This document shows positions 3,659 through 16,392 of a stretch of 64,000 nucleotides of DNA, piece by piece. This DNA is from Phycisphaerales bacterium (GTDB lineage: Bacteria; Planctomycetota; Phycisphaerae; Phycisphaerales; UBA1924). Below the pieces are notes generated by a model. That model searched no databases. It worked only from the letters and a program-made list of their open reading frames with translations, and was not told the DNA's origin. The DNA lies in contig JADLFW010000010.1 in the NCBI GenBank assembly GCA_020849615.1, forward strand, positions 1-64,000, given 5' to 3'. A program made the position numbers and the translations under genes. Within the stretch, counting starts at the first letter, position 1; every line of letters starts with the position of its first letter.

Positions 3659-5752
3659 ATGCTGGCCCGATACAAGAGCAGTCGGTCGAGGTACGCGGAG
3701 TATCTCCGCAATCACCGGGCCGCGAAGAACTACATCGATGAGCCGGTGGATGACACCGGCAAGCGCAAGGAGAAGCACAAGCGGGCCCGGTCGTTCGGGA
3801 CGCTTTTTCGCGAGTTCCTGGGGCTGCTGGCCGGGCACCGGACGACGATCATCCTGGCGCTGATGACGCTGACGTTCTCGGTTGTTGTCGGGCTGGTGAT
3901 CCCGACATCAACGAAGCTGGCGATCGACTACGCGATGACGGACCACCCGGGCCCGGCGGGCATTCCGGCGTGGCTGGGGGTGCCCGAATCGTGGAAGCAG
4001 GATCGGGTGGGGCTGCTGTGGCGGCTGGGCGGGGCGATGGTCGGGCTGTCGGCGGTGAGCGTGCTGATCGGCATGTGGGGCCGGTGGCAGATGACGCGGC
4101 TGACGAAGCGCACGCAGGCGCTGCTGCGCCGCCGGGCCTTCGAGCACGCGGCCCGGCTGCCGCTGCACCGGGTGCAGCAGCTCAAGAGCGGCGGGGTGAC
4201 GAGCATCCTGCGCGAGGATGCCGGGCAGACGGCGGACCTGCTTTTCAGCATGATCTACAACCCGTTCCGTGCGGTGGTGCAGCTGACCGGGACGCTGATC
4301 ATCCTGGCGGTGGTGGACTGGCGGATGGTGGCGGGCGCGGCGATCCTGGCGCCGACGATCTGGCTGACGCACCGGACGTGGATCAGCCGGATCCGGCCCG
4401 TCTTCCGGGATATCCGCATGACGCGGCAGGGGATCGACTCGCACACGACCGAGGCGTTCGGCGGGATGCGGGTGGTGCGGGGGTTCAACCGGGAGATGGG
4501 TGAGGCGGGGCGGTTCACGCGCGGCAGCCACTACATGATCCGCCAGGAGATCCTGGCGTGGTGGTGGTCGCGGATCATCGACATCGCGTGGTCCCTGCTG
4601 GTGCCGACGGCCTCGGTGGGCGTGCTGATCTACGGCGGGTCGCGTGTGGTGAAGGGGCAGATGACGATCGGGGATGTCATGATGTTCATGACGTACCTCC
4701 TGATGCTGCTGGGCCCGCTGGAGGCGTTGACATCGACGGCGGTGAACATCCAGACGAACCTGGCGGGGTTCGACCGGGTGCTGGACATCCTGGCCGAGCC
4801 CTCCGAGTTTGCGGATTCGCGGCCCGATGTGCTGGCTGATCGGGCCGAGGTGCGCGGGCGGGTGACGCTGAACGACGTGTGGTTCAGCTACCCGGCCCGC
4901 AAGGCGCGGTTGGCGAGCGCATCGGAGGACCGGCCCGGCGCGAAGGAGCCGGCGCGGGCGGGCCCGGCCGGGCCCGGCGTGAACGGATCGGTGGCGCCGC
5001 GGCCCGACGCCGGTAATGAGGCCGCGCAGCCCGTCATCAAGGGGGTGAGCCTGGATGTGAACCCCGGGGAGACGATCGCGCTGGTGGGGGCGAGCGGGGC
5101 GGGGAAGACGACGCTGTGCAACCTGATCGCGCGGTTCTATGACCCGTCCAAGGGAACGATCGCGCTGGACAGCGTGGACCTGAAGCGGATCGAGCCGTCG
5201 AGCTACCGGCGGCTGCTGGGGATCGTGGAGCAGGATGTCTTCCTGTTCGACGGGACGATCACCGAGAACATCGGGTACGCGCGGCGGGATGCGACGATGG
5301 AGGAGATTACTGAGGCGGCCCGGGCCGCGAACGCGCACGATTTCATCCAGAAGCTCGAGCAGGGGTACGACACGCTGATCGGGGAGCGCGGGGTGCGGCT
5401 CTCGGGCGGGCAGAAGCAGCGGATCGCGATCGCGCGGGCCCTGCTGGCCGATCCGGTGATCCTGATCCTGGATGAGGCGACGAGCAACCTGGATGCCGAG
5501 AGCGAGGCGCTGATCCAGAAGAGCCTGGCCCGGCTGATGCTGGGCCGGACGTGCTTCGTGATCGCGCACCGCCTGAGCACGATCCGCAACGCGAACCGGA
5601 TCGTGGTGCTGGAGGATGGGGCGGTGCGGGAGATCGGGACGCACGAGCAGCTGCTGGCGGCGGGGGGGCGGTACGCCGACCTGCTGCGGACGCAGCTGGA
5701 GGCGGGGCAGGTCGCCCCCGCGGCGGTCCGAGAAGCCGCTTCCCGGGGATGA
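3659..5752 (+). CDS. ABC exporter, fused membrane and ATPase domains
   Basis: 697 residues. A basic cytoplasmic N-terminus (about 55 residues) leads into six membrane helices (about 60-360) of the type I exporter class (MsbA/LmrA-like), then the nucleotide-binding domain: A-loop 'VWFSYP' near 408, Walker A GASGAGKTT near 477, signature LSGGQ near 580, Walker B 'VILILDEATSNLD' near 600 and H-loop AHR near 635. It probably works as a homodimer exporting a lipid or drug-like molecule; the substrate cannot be read from sequence. Unusually, a low-complexity insert rich in Ala/Gly/Pro/Arg (about residues 415-458) separates the A-loop from the strand before Walker A. Confidence 0.92.
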   Translation: MLARYKSSRSRYAEYLRNHRAAKNYIDEPVDDTGKRKEKHKRARSFGTLFREFLGLLAGHRTTIILALMTLTFSVVVGLVIPTSTKLAIDYAMTDHPGPAGIPAWLGVPESWKQDRVGLLWRLGGAMVGLSAVSVLIGMWGRWQMTRLTKRTQALLRRRAFEHAARLPLHRVQQLKSGGVTSILREDAGQTADLLFSMIYNPFRAVVQLTGTLIILAVVDWRMVAGAAILAPTIWLTHRTWISRIRPVFRDIRMTRQGIDSHTTEAFGGMRVVRGFNREMGEAGRFTRGSHYMIRQEILAWWWSRIIDIAWSLLVPTASVGVLIYGGSRVVKGQMTIGDVMMFMTYLLMLLGPLEALTSTAVNIQTNLAGFDRVLDILAEPSEFADSRPDVLADRAEVRGRVTLNDVWFSYPARKARLASASEDRPGAKEPARAGPAGPGVNGSVAPRPDAGNEAAQPVIKGVSLDVNPGETIALVGASGAGKTTLCNLIARFYDPSKGTIALDSVDLKRIEPSSYRRLLGIVEQDVFLFDGTITENIGYARRDATMEEITEAARAANAHDFIQKLEQGYDTLIGERGVRLSGGQKQRIAIARALLADPVILILDEATSNLDAESEALIQKSLARLMLGRTCFVIAHRLSTIRNANRIVVLEDGAVREIGTHEQLLAAGGRYADLLRTQLEAGQVAPAAVREAASRG

Positions 5753-5845: not shown

Positions 5846-6244
5846 ATGAGCATGCTGCCGCGTCTGATCCTCATGCTGTGCCTGGTGGTGCAGCCCGCGA
5901 TGGGCTGGTGGCGGGCCGGTGCGGCCTCGGCCGAGCGCGAGACGACCGACTCCTGCTGCTGCCTCGGGATGGAAGCGGAGCCCGGCGCTCCGACCTGCGA
6001 GCCGGGGCGGGGGTGTGCCCCCGCGCCGGGCCGGGCCGGGTGCTGCACGGATGTGCAGCGGCTGCTGACCTCGGGCCCGCGCGTGCTGCGGACGACGGAG
6101 CGCGACACCGACGGGCGCGGGCCCGTCGATGCGCGGGCCCGGCGCATCGCGCATGACCTTGCCGGGGCCGGGTACTCAGCCCGGCCCGCGGCGCAGCGGC
6201 CCGCACGTGAAATCCGATCGGCGATGTGCGTGTGGGTGATCTGA
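5846..6244 (+). CDS. Small secreted Cys-containing protein, unknown
   Basis: 132 residues. The start ATG 5846 has GAGG upstream (5834-5837) and opens a signal peptide (MSMLPRLILMLCLVVQPAMG). After cleavage come 'DSCCCLGME', 'CEPGRGCAPAPG' and 'GCCTDV', so the first half of the mature protein has paired cysteines. The C-terminal half is Arg/Ala rich and shows no recognised domain. I do not recognise a family. It precedes two other small Cys-rich exported proteins on the same strand, so a metal-related or disulfide-rich role is possible but only inferred from the neighbourhood. Confidence 0.5.
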   Translation: MSMLPRLILMLCLVVQPAMGWWRAGAASAERETTDSCCCLGMEAEPGAPTCEPGRGCAPAPGRAGCCTDVQRLLTSGPRVLRTTERDTDGRGPVDARARRIAHDLAGAGYSARPAAQRPAREIRSAMCVWVI

Positions 6245-6370
6245 ATGCGCGGGCCCGCGCGCTGCGCGCGGAGTGATCCGGTGTTGCTGTGAAACCCAGT
6301 ACAAGGCTGGGTCGCGGGCTGTGAGGCTCGCGGCCCGGTCGATCAACCCATGCATTCGAAAGGATCTGTC

Positions 6371-6589
6371 ATGTTGACGTTGTCCATGCTGTTGGTGTCG
6401 TTCCTCCCGGTCCAGCTGCCGATGCCGGCGGTGGAGGCTCCTGCCGCGGAGAGCTGCTGCTGCGGCGCGGCGTGCGCGTGCGATTCCTGTTCGTGCGAGG
6501 AATCCTGCGGGGACTGCTGCGGGCAGGGGTGCGGGACCTGCGCCGGCGACACCTGCGGAGAGTGCTGCATCCCGGTCGATGATTGTTGA
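6371..6589 (+). CDS. Secreted cysteine-rich mini-protein
   Basis: 72 residues. AAGGA six to seven bases before ATG 6371 fixes the start. A signal peptide (MLTLSMLLVSFLPVQLPMPA) is followed by a short mature region with 16 Cys in about 46 residues (SCCC, ACACDSCSC, GDCCGQGCGTC, GECC), plus Asp/Glu and Gly. The CxC and CC pattern resembles metallothioneins, but the protein is exported, where disulfides are also possible. I recognise no named family. The gene directly downstream encodes a lipoprotein with a metal-type CC-x-x-C motif, which suggests metal handling at the envelope as a hypothesis. Confidence 0.65.
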   Translation: MLTLSMLLVSFLPVQLPMPAVEAPAAESCCCGAACACDSCSCEESCGDCCGQGCGTCAGDTCGECCIPVDDC

Positions 6590-6772
6590 AATCGTGATTC
6601 AGCCGGCCCGGGCCTGCTTCGCGGCGGGCCCGGGCCATTGGCGTGGCGACGGAGCGGGATGGCCCGTGATAGGATGCCCGCGGAACGGGTGGATCCACTC
6701 GTGATGTCCGCCCGCGGACGGCGGGGCCGTGTGGCCCGGCTCGTCGCTGCGGGCTCAGAGCCGGAGAGTTCT

Positions 6773-7060
6773 ATGAAGCTCGGGATGATGGTGTGCGCGG
6801 CGGTGCTGGCGGCGGCGATGGCGGGCTGCAGCAGCGAGCAGAAGACCACGGCGAAGGCCGAAACGAAGGCCGAGGCGCCCGCGGCGATGTCGGTGAACAA
6901 GACCTGCCCGATCGGCGGCCACGCCGCGGTCGCGAGCAAGACGGTGGCGTACAAGGGCAAGACGATCGGCTTCTGCTGCTCCGACTGCATCGAATCCTTC
7001 AACGGGATGAGCGAAGCCGAGAAGGATGCCGTGCTGGCCAAGGCCACCACCGGCAAGTGA
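6773..7060 (+). CDS. Lipoprotein with YHS/TRASH-like metal motif
   Basis: 95 residues. GGAG at 6763-6766 sets the start at 6773. A lipoprotein signal ends in 'AAAMAGC', with Cys21 the predicted lipidated residue, then comes an Ala/Lys/Glu/Thr linker. The C-terminal domain has 'KTCPIGG' and 'YKGKTIGFCCSDCIESF', the spacing of YHS/TRASH-type small metal-binding domains (C-P-x-x-G ... F-C-C-x-x-C-x-x-x-F). It probably binds a transition metal such as copper at the envelope. An intrinsic hairpin ends the transcript just downstream. Confidence 0.75.
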   Translation: MKLGMMVCAAVLAAAMAGCSSEQKTTAKAETKAEAPAAMSVNKTCPIGGHAAVASKTVAYKGKTIGFCCSDCIESFNGMSEAEKDAVLAKATTGK

Positions 7061-7097
7061 GCGACGGGCCGTGGCCCGGCCATGACCTCGCCATGAA

Positions 7098-7126
7098 AAA
7101 GGCCCGGGGCTCATGCCCGGGCCTTT
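7098..7126. terminator. Bidirectional hairpin terminator
   Basis: AAAGGCCCGGG pairs with CCCGGGCCTTT around a short loop. There is a run of A on the left (7096-7100) and TTTGTCGTTT on the right, so it can stop both the forward lipoprotein gene and the convergent reverse gene ending at 7154. Confidence 0.8.
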
Positions 7127-7153
7127 GTCGTTTGGAGTTGATCGGAGGGTGAT

Positions 7154-9959: not shown

Positions 9960-10093
9960 GCGGGCGTTCGGTGTGTGATCGGCGGGCCGGGAGGAAATCT
10001 CTGGCCGGCCCGGCCGCACTTTCCGCATGAAACGAAGAAGCCTTGGAGTCGTGGTCGGTATCCATTAGACTTCGAACCGGAACGAGGTGCCGC

Positions 10094-10759
10094 ATGGCGA
10101 GGAAGTCGGCCTTGAGATGGGCGTGTGTGGCGGTGGCGGCGGGTTCGCCGGCGGCGCTGGCGCAGTCGGACATCGACCCGGTGCTCAAGTACGCCTGGCA
10201 GGAGAACGTCGGCTGGACCAACTGGCGTGATGCCGCGGCGGGGGCGCAGGGCGTCTTCGTCGGGTCCGGGCAGTTCCTCTCCGGCTTCGTGTGGGGGGAG
10301 AACATCGGGTGGATCAACTGCGGCGACGGCACGCCGGGCGGGGGCAGCTTCTACACCCAGGCGCCGGTCGCGGGCGTGCTCGACTTCGGCGTGAACATCG
10401 CGGGTGATGGCGCCATGTCGGGGTACGCCTGGGCCGAGAACGTCGGGTGGATCAACTTCGGGGTCTTCGCGACGCTGCCGGCGGCGCAGCGGGCCCGGTA
10501 CGACTTCACGGCCCGGCGTTTCCGCGGGTACGCGTGGGGTGAGAACATCGGCTGGCTGAACCTGGATGACGCGGCCCATTACGTGGCGCAGCGCTGCCTG
10601 GCGGACCTGAACGGGGACGGGCTGGTGGATTTCTCCGACTACCTGGAGTTCCTGAACCTGTACGACGCCGGCGACCCGGCGGTGGACTTCAACGGGGACG
10701 GGCTGGTGGACTTCTCCGACTACCTGGAGTTCCTGAACTACTACGACGCGGGCTGCTGA
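10094..10759 (+). CDS. Secreted WGENIGW-repeat protein with GC tail
   Basis: 221 residues; GAGG at 10084-10087 supports ATG 10094. A signal peptide (to about residue 24) precedes four copies of a short motif 'YAWGENIGWIN' (variants with V, Q, A, L), each spaced about 40 residues, a pattern rich in Trp and Asn that could form a small beta-repeat ligand-binding domain. The last 50 residues are the shared tail: two copies of D-x-N-G-D-G-L-V-D-F-S-D-Y-L-E-F-L-N and the terminal AGC. Each copy resembles a calcium-binding EF-hand loop as in dockerins. The two copies are almost identical at DNA level. Confidence 0.75.
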   Translation: MARKSALRWACVAVAAGSPAALAQSDIDPVLKYAWQENVGWTNWRDAAAGAQGVFVGSGQFLSGFVWGENIGWINCGDGTPGGGSFYTQAPVAGVLDFGVNIAGDGAMSGYAWAENVGWINFGVFATLPAAQRARYDFTARRFRGYAWGENIGWLNLDDAAHYVAQRCLADLNGDGLVDFSDYLEFLNLYDAGDPAVDFNGDGLVDFSDYLEFLNYYDAGC

Positions 10760-10809
10760 GCGCGGGCCGGCCCGCGCTGATGTGAAGGCGGGCGCGGGAG
10801 CGACCGGTG

Positions 10810-12321
10810 ATGGCTGAGCGGGCGGGAGCGGGTTTTCGGGTGTGGCTCCTGGGCCTGGTTGTGCTGTCCACCGCGGCGCGGGCCGGGGCGCAGCAGACGT
10901 GGTACGTCGATGATGATGCGCCGGGCGATCCGGGCCCGGGCAACCCGTCGGTCAGCGACCCCCTCGAGAACGGCAGCCCGGAGCACCCCTACGACGCGAT
11001 CCAGCAGGCTGTGAACCGGGCCGCGAGCGGCGACCGGGTGCTGGTGCTGCCGGGCACCTACCGCGGGACCGGCAACCGGAACATCTCGTTCTTCGGCAAG
11101 GGGCTCGTGGTCGAATCGCGGGACGGGCCCGTCACGTGCACGGTCGATGCGCAGGCGCAGGGCCGCGGCTTTGAACTGGCTTCGGGCGAGCCTCCCGGGA
11201 CGCAGATCCGCGGGCTGACCGTGCGCGGCGCCAGCAGCGGCGGGGTCTACGCGGTGGTGTCGTCGCTGCGGCTGGTCGACTGCCGGCTCATCAACAACGG
11301 CTCGCCGGGGTTGATCGCGGATGTGCAGGCGTTCGTCGAGGTGTACGGCACGACCATCTCCGACAACTCGACCTCGCTCGACGGCGGGGGTGTGCGGGTG
11401 GACACCGATTCGATCGTCATCCTGGCGGAGTGCGTGGTGCAGCGCAACTCGGCCTCGCGGGATGGCGGCGGCATCAGCGCCAGCGGCAGCAACGTGCTGG
11501 TGTACAACTCGCTGATCACCGACAACACGGCGGGCGGCAGCGTCTTCGGCGGCGGGGGGGTCATCTTCTACGGATCCACCGGAGGAGTGGCCAACTCGGT
11601 GATCGCCTGCAATCGCACCAGCGCCCGCGATGGCGGGGGTGTGCTCATCAACGAGGGCAGCGAGGCGTCGCTGCGGGGCAACACCATCGTGCAGAACCGC
11701 GCAGCGCGGGCCGGGGGAGGGCTCTTCGGCGATGCCAGCCCGATCTCCGAGGTCGCCAACTGCATCCTGTGGTCAAACCTCCCCCAGGCCATCACGCAGC
11801 CGACGGGCCCGATGCCCATCGTCTTCAGCGCCGTGCAGGGCGGTTGGGCGGGTGATGGCAATATAACCGCCGACCCGGTGTTCATCGACCCGGCCGGGCC
11901 CGATGGCAACCCGCAGACGTGCGCGGACAACAACTACCGGCTCGGCGAGATATCCCCGTGCATCGACGCCGGCGACACGACGCGGGTGGCCGTCGACAGC
12001 GCGGACCTCGATGGCGACACCGTGTACGGCGAGCTGACGCCGTTCGACCTGGATGGCGAGATGCGGCTGTCCAACGTTCCCGGCGTGCCGGATACCGGGC
12101 TGGGGCCGCCGGGAGTGGCGGTGGTGGACATGGGCGCGTATGAAGTCGCCGGGGATTGCCGGGCGGATCTCACCGGGGATGGCGTGGTGGACTTCGGCGA
12201 CTACCTGGAGTTCCTGAACCTGTTCGATGTGCTGGACCCGCGGGTCGACTTCAGCGCCGACGGAGTGGTGGACTTTGGTGACTACCTGGAGTTCCTCAAC
12301 CTGTACGATGCGGGATGCTGA
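10810..12321 (+). CDS. Secreted parallel beta-helix protein with GC tail
   Basis: 503 residues starting at ATG 10810 (GTG 10807 directly before it is possible). The signal peptide ends near 'ARAGA'. 'YVDDDAPGDPGPG' and 'YDAIQQAVNRAASGDRVLVLPGTYRG' are typical of the DUF1565/polysaccharide-lyase-like beta-helix entry. Rungs such as 'NSASRDGGGISASGS' and 'GGGVLINEGSEASLRGNTI' follow to about residue 330, then 'ISPCIDAGDTT', usual at the end of this fold. The tail has two EF-hand repeats and ends DAGC. The role is probably carbohydrate binding or degradation at the surface; the substrate is unknown. Confidence 0.82.
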   Translation: MAERAGAGFRVWLLGLVVLSTAARAGAQQTWYVDDDAPGDPGPGNPSVSDPLENGSPEHPYDAIQQAVNRAASGDRVLVLPGTYRGTGNRNISFFGKGLVVESRDGPVTCTVDAQAQGRGFELASGEPPGTQIRGLTVRGASSGGVYAVVSSLRLVDCRLINNGSPGLIADVQAFVEVYGTTISDNSTSLDGGGVRVDTDSIVILAECVVQRNSASRDGGGISASGSNVLVYNSLITDNTAGGSVFGGGGVIFYGSTGGVANSVIACNRTSARDGGGVLINEGSEASLRGNTIVQNRAARAGGGLFGDASPISEVANCILWSNLPQAITQPTGPMPIVFSAVQGGWAGDGNITADPVFIDPAGPDGNPQTCADNNYRLGEISPCIDAGDTTRVAVDSADLDGDTVYGELTPFDLDGEMRLSNVPGVPDTGLGPPGVAVVDMGAYEVAGDCRADLTGDGVVDFGDYLEFLNLFDVLDPRVDFSADGVVDFGDYLEFLNLYDAGC

Positions 12322-12376
12322 GGAGGACTGGATTCGGGATTCGAGAGTCGGGCGTGGGGTGTCGGGAGGATGACCG

Positions 12377-13969
12377 ATGCTGACGATCGCGGCGGCAGGA
12401 TTAATGACGGCGGTGCTGGCGCAGCCGTTGCCGGCGCACCGGATGAAACACGAGGAGCGGCCGTGGGTGGGGTTCCGCGGCCCGGTCGCCCCCGCAACCC
12501 CCGGAGAGCGCAGCCGCCCGGCCCAGCCTTGGTCGCCGCGCGACAACCGGGCCGCCGTGCAGGTGAACGTCGATGCGATGGGGATGAACATCATCGGCGA
12601 TGCGGCCAACGAGCCCTCGATCGCGGTGGACCCGACCAACCCGGCCCGGATGGCGATCGGCTGGCGGCAGTTTGACACCATCGACTCGGCCTTCCGCCAG
12701 GCGGGCTACGGCTACAGCGCGACGGGCGGGCGCAGCTGGACGTTCCCGGGCCGGCTGGATGCCGGCATCTTCCGCTCCGACCCCGTGCTGGATTCGCTCG
12801 CCGATGGCGCGTTCCTGTACTACAGCCTGACCAACATCACGGGCCTGTTCACGTGCGATGTCTTCCGCTCGACCGACGGCGGCGCGGTGTGGACGGGCCC
12901 GATCCCCGCCGCGGGGGGCGACAAGAACTGGATGGTCACCGACCGCCGGGCCGATGCGCCGCGCGGCCACGCCTACGGCACGTGGAACTCGTTCTACAGT
13001 TGCTGCGGCGAGACCGGCTTCGTGCGGTCGATCAACGGCGGGGTGAGCTTCCAGGGGCCAATCGAACTGCCCGAGGATCCGTATTGGGGCACGCTCGCGG
13101 TGGATGCCTCCGGTGATCTCTACATCCTGGGGATCTCCGATGCCGGTACCGAGCCGTTCTACGAGTACATCGTGCTGAAGTCGGCCGACGCGAAGATCCC
13201 GACGGCCACGCCCACGTTTTCCGTCATCGCCCGGTTCGATCCCCGCGTGTTGGGCGAGATCACCGGTTTCACCGACGACACACCCAACCCCGGCGGGCTG
13301 CTGGGCCAGGGGTGGATCGATGCCGACACCTCGACGGGCCCGACGCGGGGCAATCTGTATGTCTGCTGGTCGCTCGATCTGGATGGATTCGAGGGGCCCG
13401 ACCCGCTCGAGGTCGTATTCACCCGAAGCACCGATGGCGGCGCCACGTGGTCGCCGCCGCGGCGGCTCAACGATGACGCCGCGGACGCCTGGCAGTGGTT
13501 CGGCACCATGTCGGTGGCACCCAGCGGCCGCATCGATGTGGTGTGGAACGACACCCGCAACAGCGGCGGCCGGGCCAACATCTCCGAGCTGTTCTACACG
13601 TCCTCCGCCGACGGCGGCGCGACGTGGTCGGCCAACGAGCGGCTGGGCCCGGCGTGGGACAGCTGGATCGGCTGGCCGCAGCAGAACAAGATCGGCGATT
13701 ACTACCACATGGTGTCGGATGTGTACGGCGCCGACCTGGCGCTGGCCGCGACGTTCAACGGCGAGCAGGATGTGTACCACCTGCGGATCGGCCGGGAGGT
13801 CTGCCGGGCCGATTTCGACATGGATGGCATCGTTGACTTCACCGACTACCTGGCTTTTCTTAATCTCTACGACGGGGCCGACCTGCGGGCGGATCTCAAC
13901 GGGGATGGCCTCGTGGATTTCGCGGACTACCTGGAGTTCCTGAACCTCTACGATGGCGGGTGCGCCTGA
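12377..13969 (+). CDS. Secreted BNR/sialidase-like propeller with GC-type tail
   Basis: 530 residues; GGGAGG precedes ATG 12377 by about ten bases. It has a short hydrophobic N-terminus, then Asp-box/BNR motifs: 'YSATGGRSWTFP', 'RSTDGGAVW', 'RSTDGGATWSPPRRL' and 'SSADGGATWSANERL'. These S-x-D-G-G-x-x-W signatures mark a sialidase-like beta-propeller, but the Arg triad of true sialidases is not obvious, so the enzyme activity is unproven. The tail has two repeats ('DMDGIVDFTDYLAFLN' and '[18 protein letters not shown]') but ends GGCA, one residue beyond the usual terminal Cys. Confidence 0.82.
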   Translation: MLTIAAAGLMTAVLAQPLPAHRMKHEERPWVGFRGPVAPATPGERSRPAQPWSPRDNRAAVQVNVDAMGMNIIGDAANEPSIAVDPTNPARMAIGWRQFDTIDSAFRQAGYGYSATGGRSWTFPGRLDAGIFRSDPVLDSLADGAFLYYSLTNITGLFTCDVFRSTDGGAVWTGPIPAAGGDKNWMVTDRRADAPRGHAYGTWNSFYSCCGETGFVRSINGGVSFQGPIELPEDPYWGTLAVDASGDLYILGISDAGTEPFYEYIVLKSADAKIPTATPTFSVIARFDPRVLGEITGFTDDTPNPGGLLGQGWIDADTSTGPTRGNLYVCWSLDLDGFEGPDPLEVVFTRSTDGGATWSPPRRLNDDAADAWQWFGTMSVAPSGRIDVVWNDTRNSGGRANISELFYTSSADGGATWSANERLGPAWDSWIGWPQQNKIGDYYHMVSDVYGADLALAATFNGEQDVYHLRIGREVCRADFDMDGIVDFTDYLAFLNLYDGADLRADLNGDGLVDFADYLEFLNLYDGGCA

Positions 13970-14109
13970 GGGACGGGCCTGCGCCGGGTGCGGGCCGGGC
14001 GGGGCGGGAATTTCGGGCCCGTCGCCACCGGCAAGGCCCGGCGTGCGTATCTGGGGGGCGAGCGGCGTTCCGGGCCCGCGGCCCGGCGTCTACACGACAG
14101 GGGGAATCC

Positions 14110-16392
14110 ATGATCATGAACACCCGGGCCCGCGCGTGCGTGGCGGCGGTGGCGGTGGTGCTGGCCGGGGCTGCGCGGGGTGATGAGCCCCCGAACCCGA
14201 CGTGCTCGCACGCCAAGGCGTTGCGTGCGCCGCGGCCCGTCGATCCGGAACTGCCGTGGGTTTCGCGGATGCTGCGCGAGGCGATGCCGCTGACCGATGT
14301 GCTGCACAACGACCTGGACATCGAGGTGCTGCCGGCGACATCGTCGGTCGCGGGCGGCAACACGATGACGGTGAAGAGCCTGGCCGATGGGCTCCGCGAG
14401 TTCACGTTCCGCCTGCGCGGCAACATGACAATCTCGGCGTGCGTGCTGAACGGCTCGACGCCCGCGGCGTGCCAGCTGGTGGGCACGACGGCCCGGGTGG
14501 TCACGCTCGACCGGGCTTACGACCGCGGCGAGGTCTTCACGCTGAAGGTGAGCTACTCGGGCGTCCCGGCCCGGATCGACGATGCGATCACCTTCTCGAC
14601 CACGCCGGATGGCTTTCCGAATATCTACACGCTGAGCCAGCCGTTCGGGGCCTCGGCGTGGTGGCCCTGCAAGGATGTGGACTACGGCCAGCTCGGCGAC
14701 AACTCGGACAAGGCGACGCTGGATTTCGCCGTGACGGTCCCGGCGAGCATCAGCGTGACCGCCAACGGGATGCTGGTCGGAGTTGACGACCTCGACGGCG
14801 CCCGGCGGCGCTACCGCTGGGCCACGAGCTACCCGATGGCGACGTACCTCGTCGCGTTCTCCGCCGGCAAGTACAGCACCTGGACCAGGCCGTTCGACTA
14901 CGCCGGCGGCTCCATGCCCGTCGAGTTCAACCTCTACGCCTACGCCGACTCGCCCACCCGCCGGGCCAACATGGAGAAGGTGATCCCGATGCTGGGGACC
15001 TTCGGCGGCGCGTACGGGCTGTATCCCTTCATCGCCGAGAAGTACGGCCTCTACCAGTTCGGCTGGGGCGGCGGCATGGAGCACCAGACCAACACGGGCC
15101 AGTGCTGCTTCAACAGCGAGTGGCTTTCCGCGCACGAGCTGGCCCACCAGTGGTGGGGCGATGATGTCACCTGCAGGACGTGGGGCGACATCTGGCTCAA
15201 TGAGGGGTTCGCCACCTATTCCGAGGCGATCTGGGAGGAGCGCAAGCCCGGCTCCCCCGGGGCCTCGGCGCTGCGGGCCGCGATGAGCAACCGCAGGCCC
15301 GGCTCGGTCAGCGGCACCGTTTACCGCTACGACACCAGCAGCTTCGGCTCGATCTTCAGCGGCACGTACGCGTACAACAAGGGCGCGTGGGTGGTCCACA
15401 TGCTCCGCGGCGTCGTGGGCGATGAGAGGTTCTTCGACATCCTCGCGGCCTGGCGCAACGCGTACAGCGGCTCGGCGGGGACGACCGACGACTTCGCGGC
15501 GATCGCCTCCAGCGTGTCGGGCCTGGACCTGACGCGGTTCTTCGATCAGTGGGTCTACCTGGGCGGCGCGCCGGCGTACACCTACGGCTTTCAGAACGTG
15601 ACGATCGGCGGGCAGCGATACCTGCGGCTGCACATCCGCCAGACGCAGCAGACCTCGTACGGTGTCGATGGCGTCTTCGAGATGCCCATCACCGCGCGGC
15701 TGTCGATCGCGTCGGGCTCGGTGGATGTCGTGCTTGAGAACTCGGCCCGGCTGCAGCACTACGTGATTTCCGTGACGGGCCCGGCGACGCCGGCGATCGA
15801 CCCCGACAACTGGATCCTGTGGACCAACGTCTCTGCCGAGTCCTACATCCCCGGCCCGCCCAAGGTGGTGTCGGCCGATCCCGCGGTCGGCGCCTGGTAC
15901 GCGGCGGTGGGCCCGTCGAGCCTGTCGGTGACTTTCAGCGAGGATGTGAGCGTGGATGCCGGGAAGCTGGGGCTGACGGGCCCGGCCGGGCCCGTGCCCT
16001 TCACGGTCGCGTACGACCCGGCGAAGTTCACCGCGACGCTTTTATTGGCGGAGGCGTTGTCGCCCGGCGTTTACGCGTTGTCGGTCTCGGATTCGATCAC
16101 TTCGGCCGCGAGCGGCATTCCGCTGGATGGCGAGATCGCCGACCCCTTCCGGGCCGGCTCGCTGCCCTCGGGCGATGGTCTGCCGATGGGCACCACGATC
16201 ATCGGCTTCGAGGTGCGCGCAGCGGCCTGCCGCGTCGATCTCAACGGCGATGGCACGGTGAGCTTCGCGGATTATCTTGAGTTCCTGTCGCTCTTTGACG
16301 CCCTCGATGCACGGGCCGACTTTGACGGCGATGGAACGGTGAATTTCTCGGACTATCTCCAGTTCCTGAACGAATTCGAGGCGGGATGCTGA
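14110..16392 (+). CDS. Secreted M1-family metallopeptidase with GC tail
   Basis: 760 residues; AGGGGG at 14099-14104 supports ATG 14110. Signal peptide to 'ARGDE'. The catalytic zinc site HELAHQWWG (His342, Glu343, His346) with the third ligand in 'NEGFATYSE' about 19 residues on, and the exopeptidase-type motif 'GGGMEHQTNT' just before, define the gluzincin family M1 (aminopeptidase N-like). A C-terminal Ig-like domain ('VVSADPAVGAWYAAVGP...') precedes two EF-hand repeats ending EAGC. It likely trims peptides at the cell surface. A paralogue lies at 60277-62697 in cluster B. Confidence 0.9.
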   Translation: MIMNTRARACVAAVAVVLAGAARGDEPPNPTCSHAKALRAPRPVDPELPWVSRMLREAMPLTDVLHNDLDIEVLPATSSVAGGNTMTVKSLADGLREFTFRLRGNMTISACVLNGSTPAACQLVGTTARVVTLDRAYDRGEVFTLKVSYSGVPARIDDAITFSTTPDGFPNIYTLSQPFGASAWWPCKDVDYGQLGDNSDKATLDFAVTVPASISVTANGMLVGVDDLDGARRRYRWATSYPMATYLVAFSAGKYSTWTRPFDYAGGSMPVEFNLYAYADSPTRRANMEKVIPMLGTFGGAYGLYPFIAEKYGLYQFGWGGGMEHQTNTGQCCFNSEWLSAHELAHQWWGDDVTCRTWGDIWLNEGFATYSEAIWEERKPGSPGASALRAAMSNRRPGSVSGTVYRYDTSSFGSIFSGTYAYNKGAWVVHMLRGVVGDERFFDILAAWRNAYSGSAGTTDDFAAIASSVSGLDLTRFFDQWVYLGGAPAYTYGFQNVTIGGQRYLRLHIRQTQQTSYGVDGVFEMPITARLSIASGSVDVVLENSARLQHYVISVTGPATPAIDPDNWILWTNVSAESYIPGPPKVVSADPAVGAWYAAVGPSSLSVTFSEDVSVDAGKLGLTGPAGPVPFTVAYDPAKFTATLLLAEALSPGVYALSVSDSITSAASGIPLDGEIADPFRAGSLPSGDGLPMGTTIIGFEVRAAACRVDLNGDGTVSFADYLEFLSLFDALDARADFDGDGTVNFSDYLQFLNEFEAGC

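Follow-up and report, generated by a model that had tools for sequence, protein, structure and literature searches.

What could three small cysteine-rich genes do that follow one another on the same strand, just behind an ABC exporter gene, in a planctomycete contig? The initial annotation of the 64,000-nucleotide stretch analysed here (the window) had recorded three neighbouring exported proteins rich in cysteine at 5846-7060. The frames are real, and the coordinates and cysteine content of ORF1, ORF2 and ORF3 match that description. The middle frame is as cysteine-dense as described, since 16 of its 72 residues are cysteines and all of these fall within the last 44 residues (36%). The lipoprotein features reported for the third frame are also seen, with a lipobox (AMAG-C) and the motifs CPIGG and FCCSDC. 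The genes and predicted RNA features of the region are listed here, with the basis of each assignment in brackets.

3659-5752, + strand: ABCB-type exporter, a half-transporter (Pfam ABC_membrane and ABC_tran; PDB relatives ABCB1/4, Sav1866 and MsbA)
5846-6244, + strand: ORF1, cysteine-rich leader-like protein, predicted exported, 132 aa with 9 Cys (translation; same slot in 11 genomes)
6206-6241, + strand: conserved ORF1 tail codons, [C/G]-x-W-x-x-stop (alignment and tail matrix test)
6255-6271, + strand: predicted RNA hairpin CCGCGCG-CUG-CGCGCGG just 3' of the ORF1 stop (fold of 6245-6380)
6305-6340, + strand: predicted second stem-loop of 16 bp in the ORF1-ORF2 spacer (fold)
6359-6364, + strand: Shine-Dalgarno-like AAAGGA of ORF2 (sequence)
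6371-6589, + strand: ORF2, metallothionein-like mini-protein, predicted exported, 72 aa with 16 Cys (translation, composition, synteny)
6602-6642, + strand: strong G+C hairpin between ORF2 and ORF3 (fold, z -2.07)
6773-7060, + strand: ORF3, lipoprotein with a YHS/TRASH-like site, 95 aa (relatives, invariant Cys, sub-threshold Pfam YHS)
7106-7125, + strand: terminator-like hairpin 3' of ORF3 (consensus scan)

Rfam matches at 7008-7147 scored below the gathering scores and overlapped a plain terminator-like region, and were discarded. Elsewhere in the window, four neighbouring large proteins at 10043-16392 share the same C-terminal dockerin-like repeat. Hexamers of the type CGGGCC/GGCCCG occur at 9.3 per kb across positions 1-64000, compared with 1.0-4.0 per kb in the loci of other genomes with 62-71% G+C.

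A gene cassette conserved in one bacterial family

The order ORF1, mini-protein (mini) and YHS protein is found on one strand in 11 genomes from six genera of a single family, among 163 family genomes searched. The contig of one counted genome, G029, ends before the YHS gene. Judged from sequence and gene order, the cassette is a real, conserved set of one bacterial family. The G004 cassette was read from the DNA around ORF3 relatives and encodes an ORF1-like protein, a 62-aa mini with 15 Cys and a YHS protein. In G003, the ABC exporter is also found upstream and is 59% identical to the exporter of the window. The cassettes of G115, G091, G029 and G210 were reached via orthologues of the ABC exporter, and those of G320, G321, G212 and G188 were added by a seven-row profile of the minis. 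The same profile detected no carrier outside the family in a class-level search of 317 genomes, while a first profile of three rows missed most members and otherwise returned noise. Phylum-level matches in G573 and G688 were rejected upon inspection. Three further genomes (G014, G148 and G227) carry a YHS lipoprotein 3' of the ABC gene, with no mini detected. In two of these, the YHS lipoproteins (L168:3696-4028 in G148 and L171:204-605 in G227) have an additional cysteine-rich stretch preceding the YHS portion, as though the lipoprotein had taken over the role of the mini. No published description of such a cassette was found in the open-access papers searched.

In 10 of the 11 genomes, the gene immediately 5' of the cassette encodes the ABC exporter, G004 being the exception. 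The mini could thus be a secreted peptide with disulfide bonds, of antimicrobial or structural function, that is exported by its neighbour. We regard this as very improbable. Cysteine numbers are odd and vary among minis from 11 to 18, and the many CC and CxC pairs fit a fixed disulfide pattern poorly. The mini brings a signal-like N terminus of its own, Pfam reports no peptidase domain in the exporter, and the ABC gene is present in many relatives without the cassette. As the exporter is of an ordinary ABCB type and common without the cassette, we treat it as a neighbour rather than a proven part.

The mini-protein frame is under selection in one genus

For ORF2, the ATG at 6371 is the most likely start because AAAGGA lies 6 nt upstream, while the alternative ATG at 6350 has no Shine-Dalgarno-like site. 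AAAGG(A) is also found upstream of most minis in g65, the best-sampled genus. The signal peptide was assigned by eye, and its n-region contains neither Lys nor Arg when read from 6371. The predicted mature part starts at about 6440 and comprises 49 residues, with F, W, Y, H, K, R and M all absent. ORF2 has the composition by which metallothioneins are recognized, being small, with about 20-35% Cys or more, CC and CxC motifs, and few or no aromatic residues. This composition recurs across the cassettes. The cysteine domain contains 28-58% Cys in all but one of the 11 minis, the exception being G210 with 20%, and aromatic residues and His are absent from nine.

Frames with at least 11 Cys in 46 residues were found only as cassette minis among the short frames of the 64 kb window and several hundred kb of relatives' loci, which argues against ORF2 being a chance product. 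Lack of conservation of the frame had been named beforehand as grounds for rejecting the initial annotation, and the mini is conserved, with a same-sense cysteine-rich frame in the slot in 11 genomes. Among the g65 minis, the frame is free of stops and the pattern SCCC..SC.C..C.C is largely kept. Comparisons within g65 (6 genomes, 15 pairs) gave pN/pS of 0.33/0.64 for the mini, 0.43/0.65 for ORF1 and 0.26/0.65 for the YHS gene, values that yield only rough ratios with pS near saturation. On these sequence comparisons, purifying selection acts on the mini frame in g65. Across genera, pairwise BLAST among the minis produced no match. With a leave-one-out profile, the mini of the window scored above all of 1000 full shuffles, and 54 of 1000 shuffles of the cysteine domain only reached its score. 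As far as these searches resolve it, kinship among minis outside g65 shows in position and architecture only. ORF2 has no match in Pfam, NCBIfam or PDB sequences, three of its relatives have none in Pfam, and ORF2 as a query retrieved no credible relative from GTDB genome contigs or IMG/VR. The failure of direct searches probably stems from a cysteine-rich sequence that defeats seeding.

An antisense frame of 246 aa (6343-7083, minus strand) overlaps both ORF2 and ORF3, which could then be mere shadows of a real gene on the other strand. The frame is long and its composition score exceeds those of ORF2 and ORF3. However, the recurrence of same-sense cysteine-rich frames in the slot, pN below pS in g65, and the conservation of ORF3, which has relatives in 42 of 61 genomes when that of the window is counted, leave this explanation with a negligible probability.

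A different role for the mini would be that of a regulatory peptide, whose stretch of Cys codons would act as a sensor of cysteine (or metal) while being translated, with attenuation of the lipoprotein gene as the outcome. The mini lies just 5' of ORF3 with a strong hairpin in between, and one relative's mini has up to six consecutive Cys codons. There is also precedent in polycysteine attenuator ORFs, namely the mycobacterial poly-cysteine short ORFs of Canestrari et al. 2020, as cited in PMC9094748. Nevertheless, minis carry 10-18 Cys spread over 19-54 residues rather than a terminal run, have a Shine-Dalgarno site of their own, and retain a hydrophobic signal-like N terminus, which would be superfluous for a cysteine sensor acting at the RNA level. 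We consider a regulatory peptide unlikely, and ORF2 is probably a metal sponge outside the inner membrane, with metal binding predicted from its sequence.

The ORF1 tail resembles those of cus-operon leaders

Cysteine-rich leader genes head cus operons in the same order of bacteria. Cus leaders consist of a signal peptide, cysteines arranged as CC..CC..C..C.C, a proline-rich middle and a C-terminal NE.QALLGIW[RQ]T-stop. The tail NEIQALLGIWRT was found in the loci L106-L134 (e.g., L115:1446-1500 and L107:1404-1515, both on the minus strand). Most loci read have the leader about 90-110 nt upstream of cusC. The genes 3' of the leaders encode OEP/CusC-type, CusB-type (with HMBD) and CusA/CzcA-type proteins, with YHS proteins 3' of cusA in four operons and a copper-type P-type ATPase near one. 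Of 201 genomes in the order, 36 have a match to a profile in which cus leaders predominate. The stop codon is TAG in 23 of 25 cus leaders versus 18% of 507 background genes, with the leader sequences being related and not independent. A conserved AGGGANNNTGCGCGC-like element follows about 14-30 nt past the stop. Consensus RNA folding of this element returned no pairs, leaving sequence conservation only. Such a tail stands before many cus operons of the order and is a candidate element for translational control in response to metal, distinct from DUF2946.

ORF1 has a hydrophobic N terminus, and its cysteines occur as CCC, as CC and spaced. No significant match for ORF1 was found in Pfam or NCBIfam, and the full-length cus-leader profile scored the ORF1 of the window at 4.0 bits, not above shuffles. 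The C-terminal tail of ORF1 in the window reads REIRSAMCVWVI. Using a tail matrix made from cus leaders only, the last 12 residues of the ORF1s of the window, G003 and G004 took ranks 4-6 of 542 genes, with the window fourth behind three true leaders. A profile of the same three ORF1s led to leaders in G320 and G274 that end in NSIQSLLCVWVV and NSIQSLLCVWIV and have a CusC-like gene next. These tails, with their SLLCVWVV ending, are intermediate between ORF1 and cus-leader tails. Based on the tail ranks and these intermediates, it is plausible that ORF1 has at least the tail in common with cus leaders. The genome of the window (G000) also has a separate cus operon on contig C31 (L064:166-9923). 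Its cysteine-rich leader is a different one, ending in ..LLRMHCALTI, and is followed by YHS, CusC, CusB and CusA genes and a P-type-ATPase-like frame.

Structured spacers and candidate regulation

The spacers between ORF1 and the mini fold into more structure than their dinucleotide shuffles do, with a mean z of -2.45 (n = 11), and cus-leader spacers are less structured (mean z -1.06, n = 25). In the window, the fold of 6245-6380 has an overall z of -2.08. In five of the six g65 genomes, bases just past the ORF1 stop are complementary over 6-9 bp to the Shine-Dalgarno region of the mini. In G321, for instance, CCUUUCGU can pair with ACGAAAGG, and in G188 UUUCGUGCG can do so with CGCACGAAA. Tested against shuffles, the five pairings gave p-values of 0.002, 0.010, 0.010, 0.114 and 0.282. 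The paired segments vary yet stay complementary (UUUCGU/ACGAAA versus UUUCGC/GCGAAA). G004 has a 7-bp match of the same kind, and the pairing is absent from the window, G091, G029, G210 and G003. The window carries CTGCGCGC inside the hairpin at 6255-6271, as in cus-leader spacers, which may or may not be the cus-leader post-stop element. By analogy, the layout of anti-Shine-Dalgarno and Shine-Dalgarno segments in g65 matches that of CutF control, in which the stem covering the downstream Shine-Dalgarno site is opened when a ribosome slows on the leader (PMC9973294). Control of CruR proceeds via Rho instead (PMC9426467).

The third gene encodes a YHS-like lipoprotein

ORF3 carries the cysteine ligand pattern CP ... 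[FL]CCxxC, with C45, P46, C68, C69 and C72 invariant in 17 relatives. The protein scores 17.9 bits against Pfam YHS (PF04945), under the gathering score of 30.3, and a two-domain YHS relative from a cus operon reaches 30.4 bits. A search of the PDB returned nothing similar by sequence. The single-sequence AF2 model is weak (mean pLDDT 67) and suggests a beta-hairpin followed by a helix. Its best PDB matches have E values of at least 2 and include phenol hydroxylase and a small ribosomal protein. A 145-aa cysteine-rich protein, by eye similar to Csp/DUF326 copper-storage proteins, is encoded near YHS genes at L067:12308-12745 and L075:3491-3928.

A putative periplasmic copper buffer

Taken together, the composition and probable export of the mini, its TRASH/YHS-like partner and the Cus-type leader suggest metal sequestration outside the inner membrane. 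We suggest, with slightly better than even confidence, that the cassette is a small periplasmic soft-metal buffering unit, most likely for Cu(I), with a leader in control and a metallothionein-like payload. ORF1 would belong to the type of leader gene found at the start of CusCBA operons in this order, acting as an exported cysteine-rich nascent chain. Its C-terminal tail and stop region might couple the perception of metal to the expression of whatever gene follows. In this cassette, that gene, in a presumed common transcript, would be ORF2 and not an efflux pump. The exported metallothionein-like peptide could chelate several metal ions through thiolate clusters, and the TRASH/YHS-type cysteine site of the lipid-anchored ORF3 may hold metal at a membrane or hand it on.

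The envelope metal-handling set proposed in the initial annotation is well supported by the conserved gene order, the metallothionein-like composition and the ORF1- and ORF3-like proteins that flank CusCBA-type efflux genes in relatives. The part given to ORF1 has changed, as it looks like a leader or sensor gene and not like one more metal binder similar to the other two. The set had also been left without a match to any named system. It can now be placed, given that it resembles cus operons in its leader and its YHS protein, here combined with a metallothionein-like payload.

The same cassette could serve a metal other than copper, such as Zn, Cd, Ag or Hg, or provide general thiol or oxidative protection outside the inner membrane. 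Among the metals that metallothioneins bind are Zn, Cd, Cu and Ag, and the CusA/CzcA family of the related operons spans several metals. The resemblance of the leader to Cus-type leaders, the copper-type P-type ATPase near one operon and a nos cluster adjoining one cassette all lean towards copper, so that we see roughly a one-in-five chance for these options. The G004 cassette (L048:8428-17519) lies beside genes for a MauE+HMA protein, a cytochrome c, a nosZ-like protein and nosD. Nitrous oxide reduction is a copper enzyme system, and the nosZ-like and nosD neighbours thus fit copper. CutF-like leaders have been reported adjoining nitrous-oxide reductase genes (PMC9973294).

A copper buffer under leader control raises a more specific possibility. 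A nascent-chain metal sensor without DUF2946 and with its own [C/G]xWxx-stop tail may control translation of an exported bacterial metallothionein, which we put forward tentatively and with less than even confidence. If true, a "sequester" output would be attached to a kind of switch that elsewhere in the order precedes the "export" output of CusCBA. Bacterial metallothioneins have been treated as cytosolic (PMC7558416). With a conserved exported metallothionein, the known routes of export and storage would be joined by an extracytoplasmic sink.

Comparison with known systems

The closest parallels to ORF1 are CutF and CruR, exported copper-sensing leader proteins with DUF2946 that have broader relatives in CzcI and CopL (PMC9973294, PMC9426467). 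Similar to these leaders, ORF1 is the first gene, with a signal-like N terminus, cysteines in the mature part, a conserved C-terminal end and a structured spacer. The segment of g65 that could hide the Shine-Dalgarno site is reminiscent of CutF, and leaders related to ORF1 stand before CusC-type genes. However, the DUF2946 profile matched neither ORF1 nor its relatives or the cus leaders tested. ORF1 lacks the RAPP or proline-rich end and has the [C/G]xWxx-stop tail instead, and the payload is a metallothionein-like peptide. The ORF1 of the window contains no CXXC or CXXXC, and some of its relatives have such a motif.

ORF2 shares with the bacterial metallothioneins SmtA and MymT its small size, a cysteine content of about one-third, CC and CxC motifs and the absence of aromatic residues (PMC7558416). 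Unlike both, it has a signal-like N terminus, no profile match and a constant position, flanked by a leader gene on one side and a YHS gene on the other. It further differs from SmtA in having neither a zinc-finger fold nor His ligands (PMC7558416). Csp1 provides a parallel as an exported, cysteine-rich copper sink (PMC7558416), features that are predicted (export) or proposed (copper sink) for ORF2. Csp1 is a four-helix bundle with cysteines lining the core and a Tat signal (PMC7558416), whereas the mature ORF2 of about 49 aa is rich in Gly, Ser and Cys, falls below the length of a helix bundle and has no twin-Arg motif.

ORF3 resembles YHS and TRASH domains (PF04945, PF24273; CopM/CopT, PMC5328820) in its CP... 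and FCCxxC cysteine ligands, and differs in being a single, lipid-anchored domain below the Pfam gathering score. At the level of the whole locus, the cassette has no pump gene, in contrast to CusCBA and CzcCBA operons. Yet the operons of its relatives carry the same kinds of parts, with ORF1-type leaders at one end and YHS proteins at the other.
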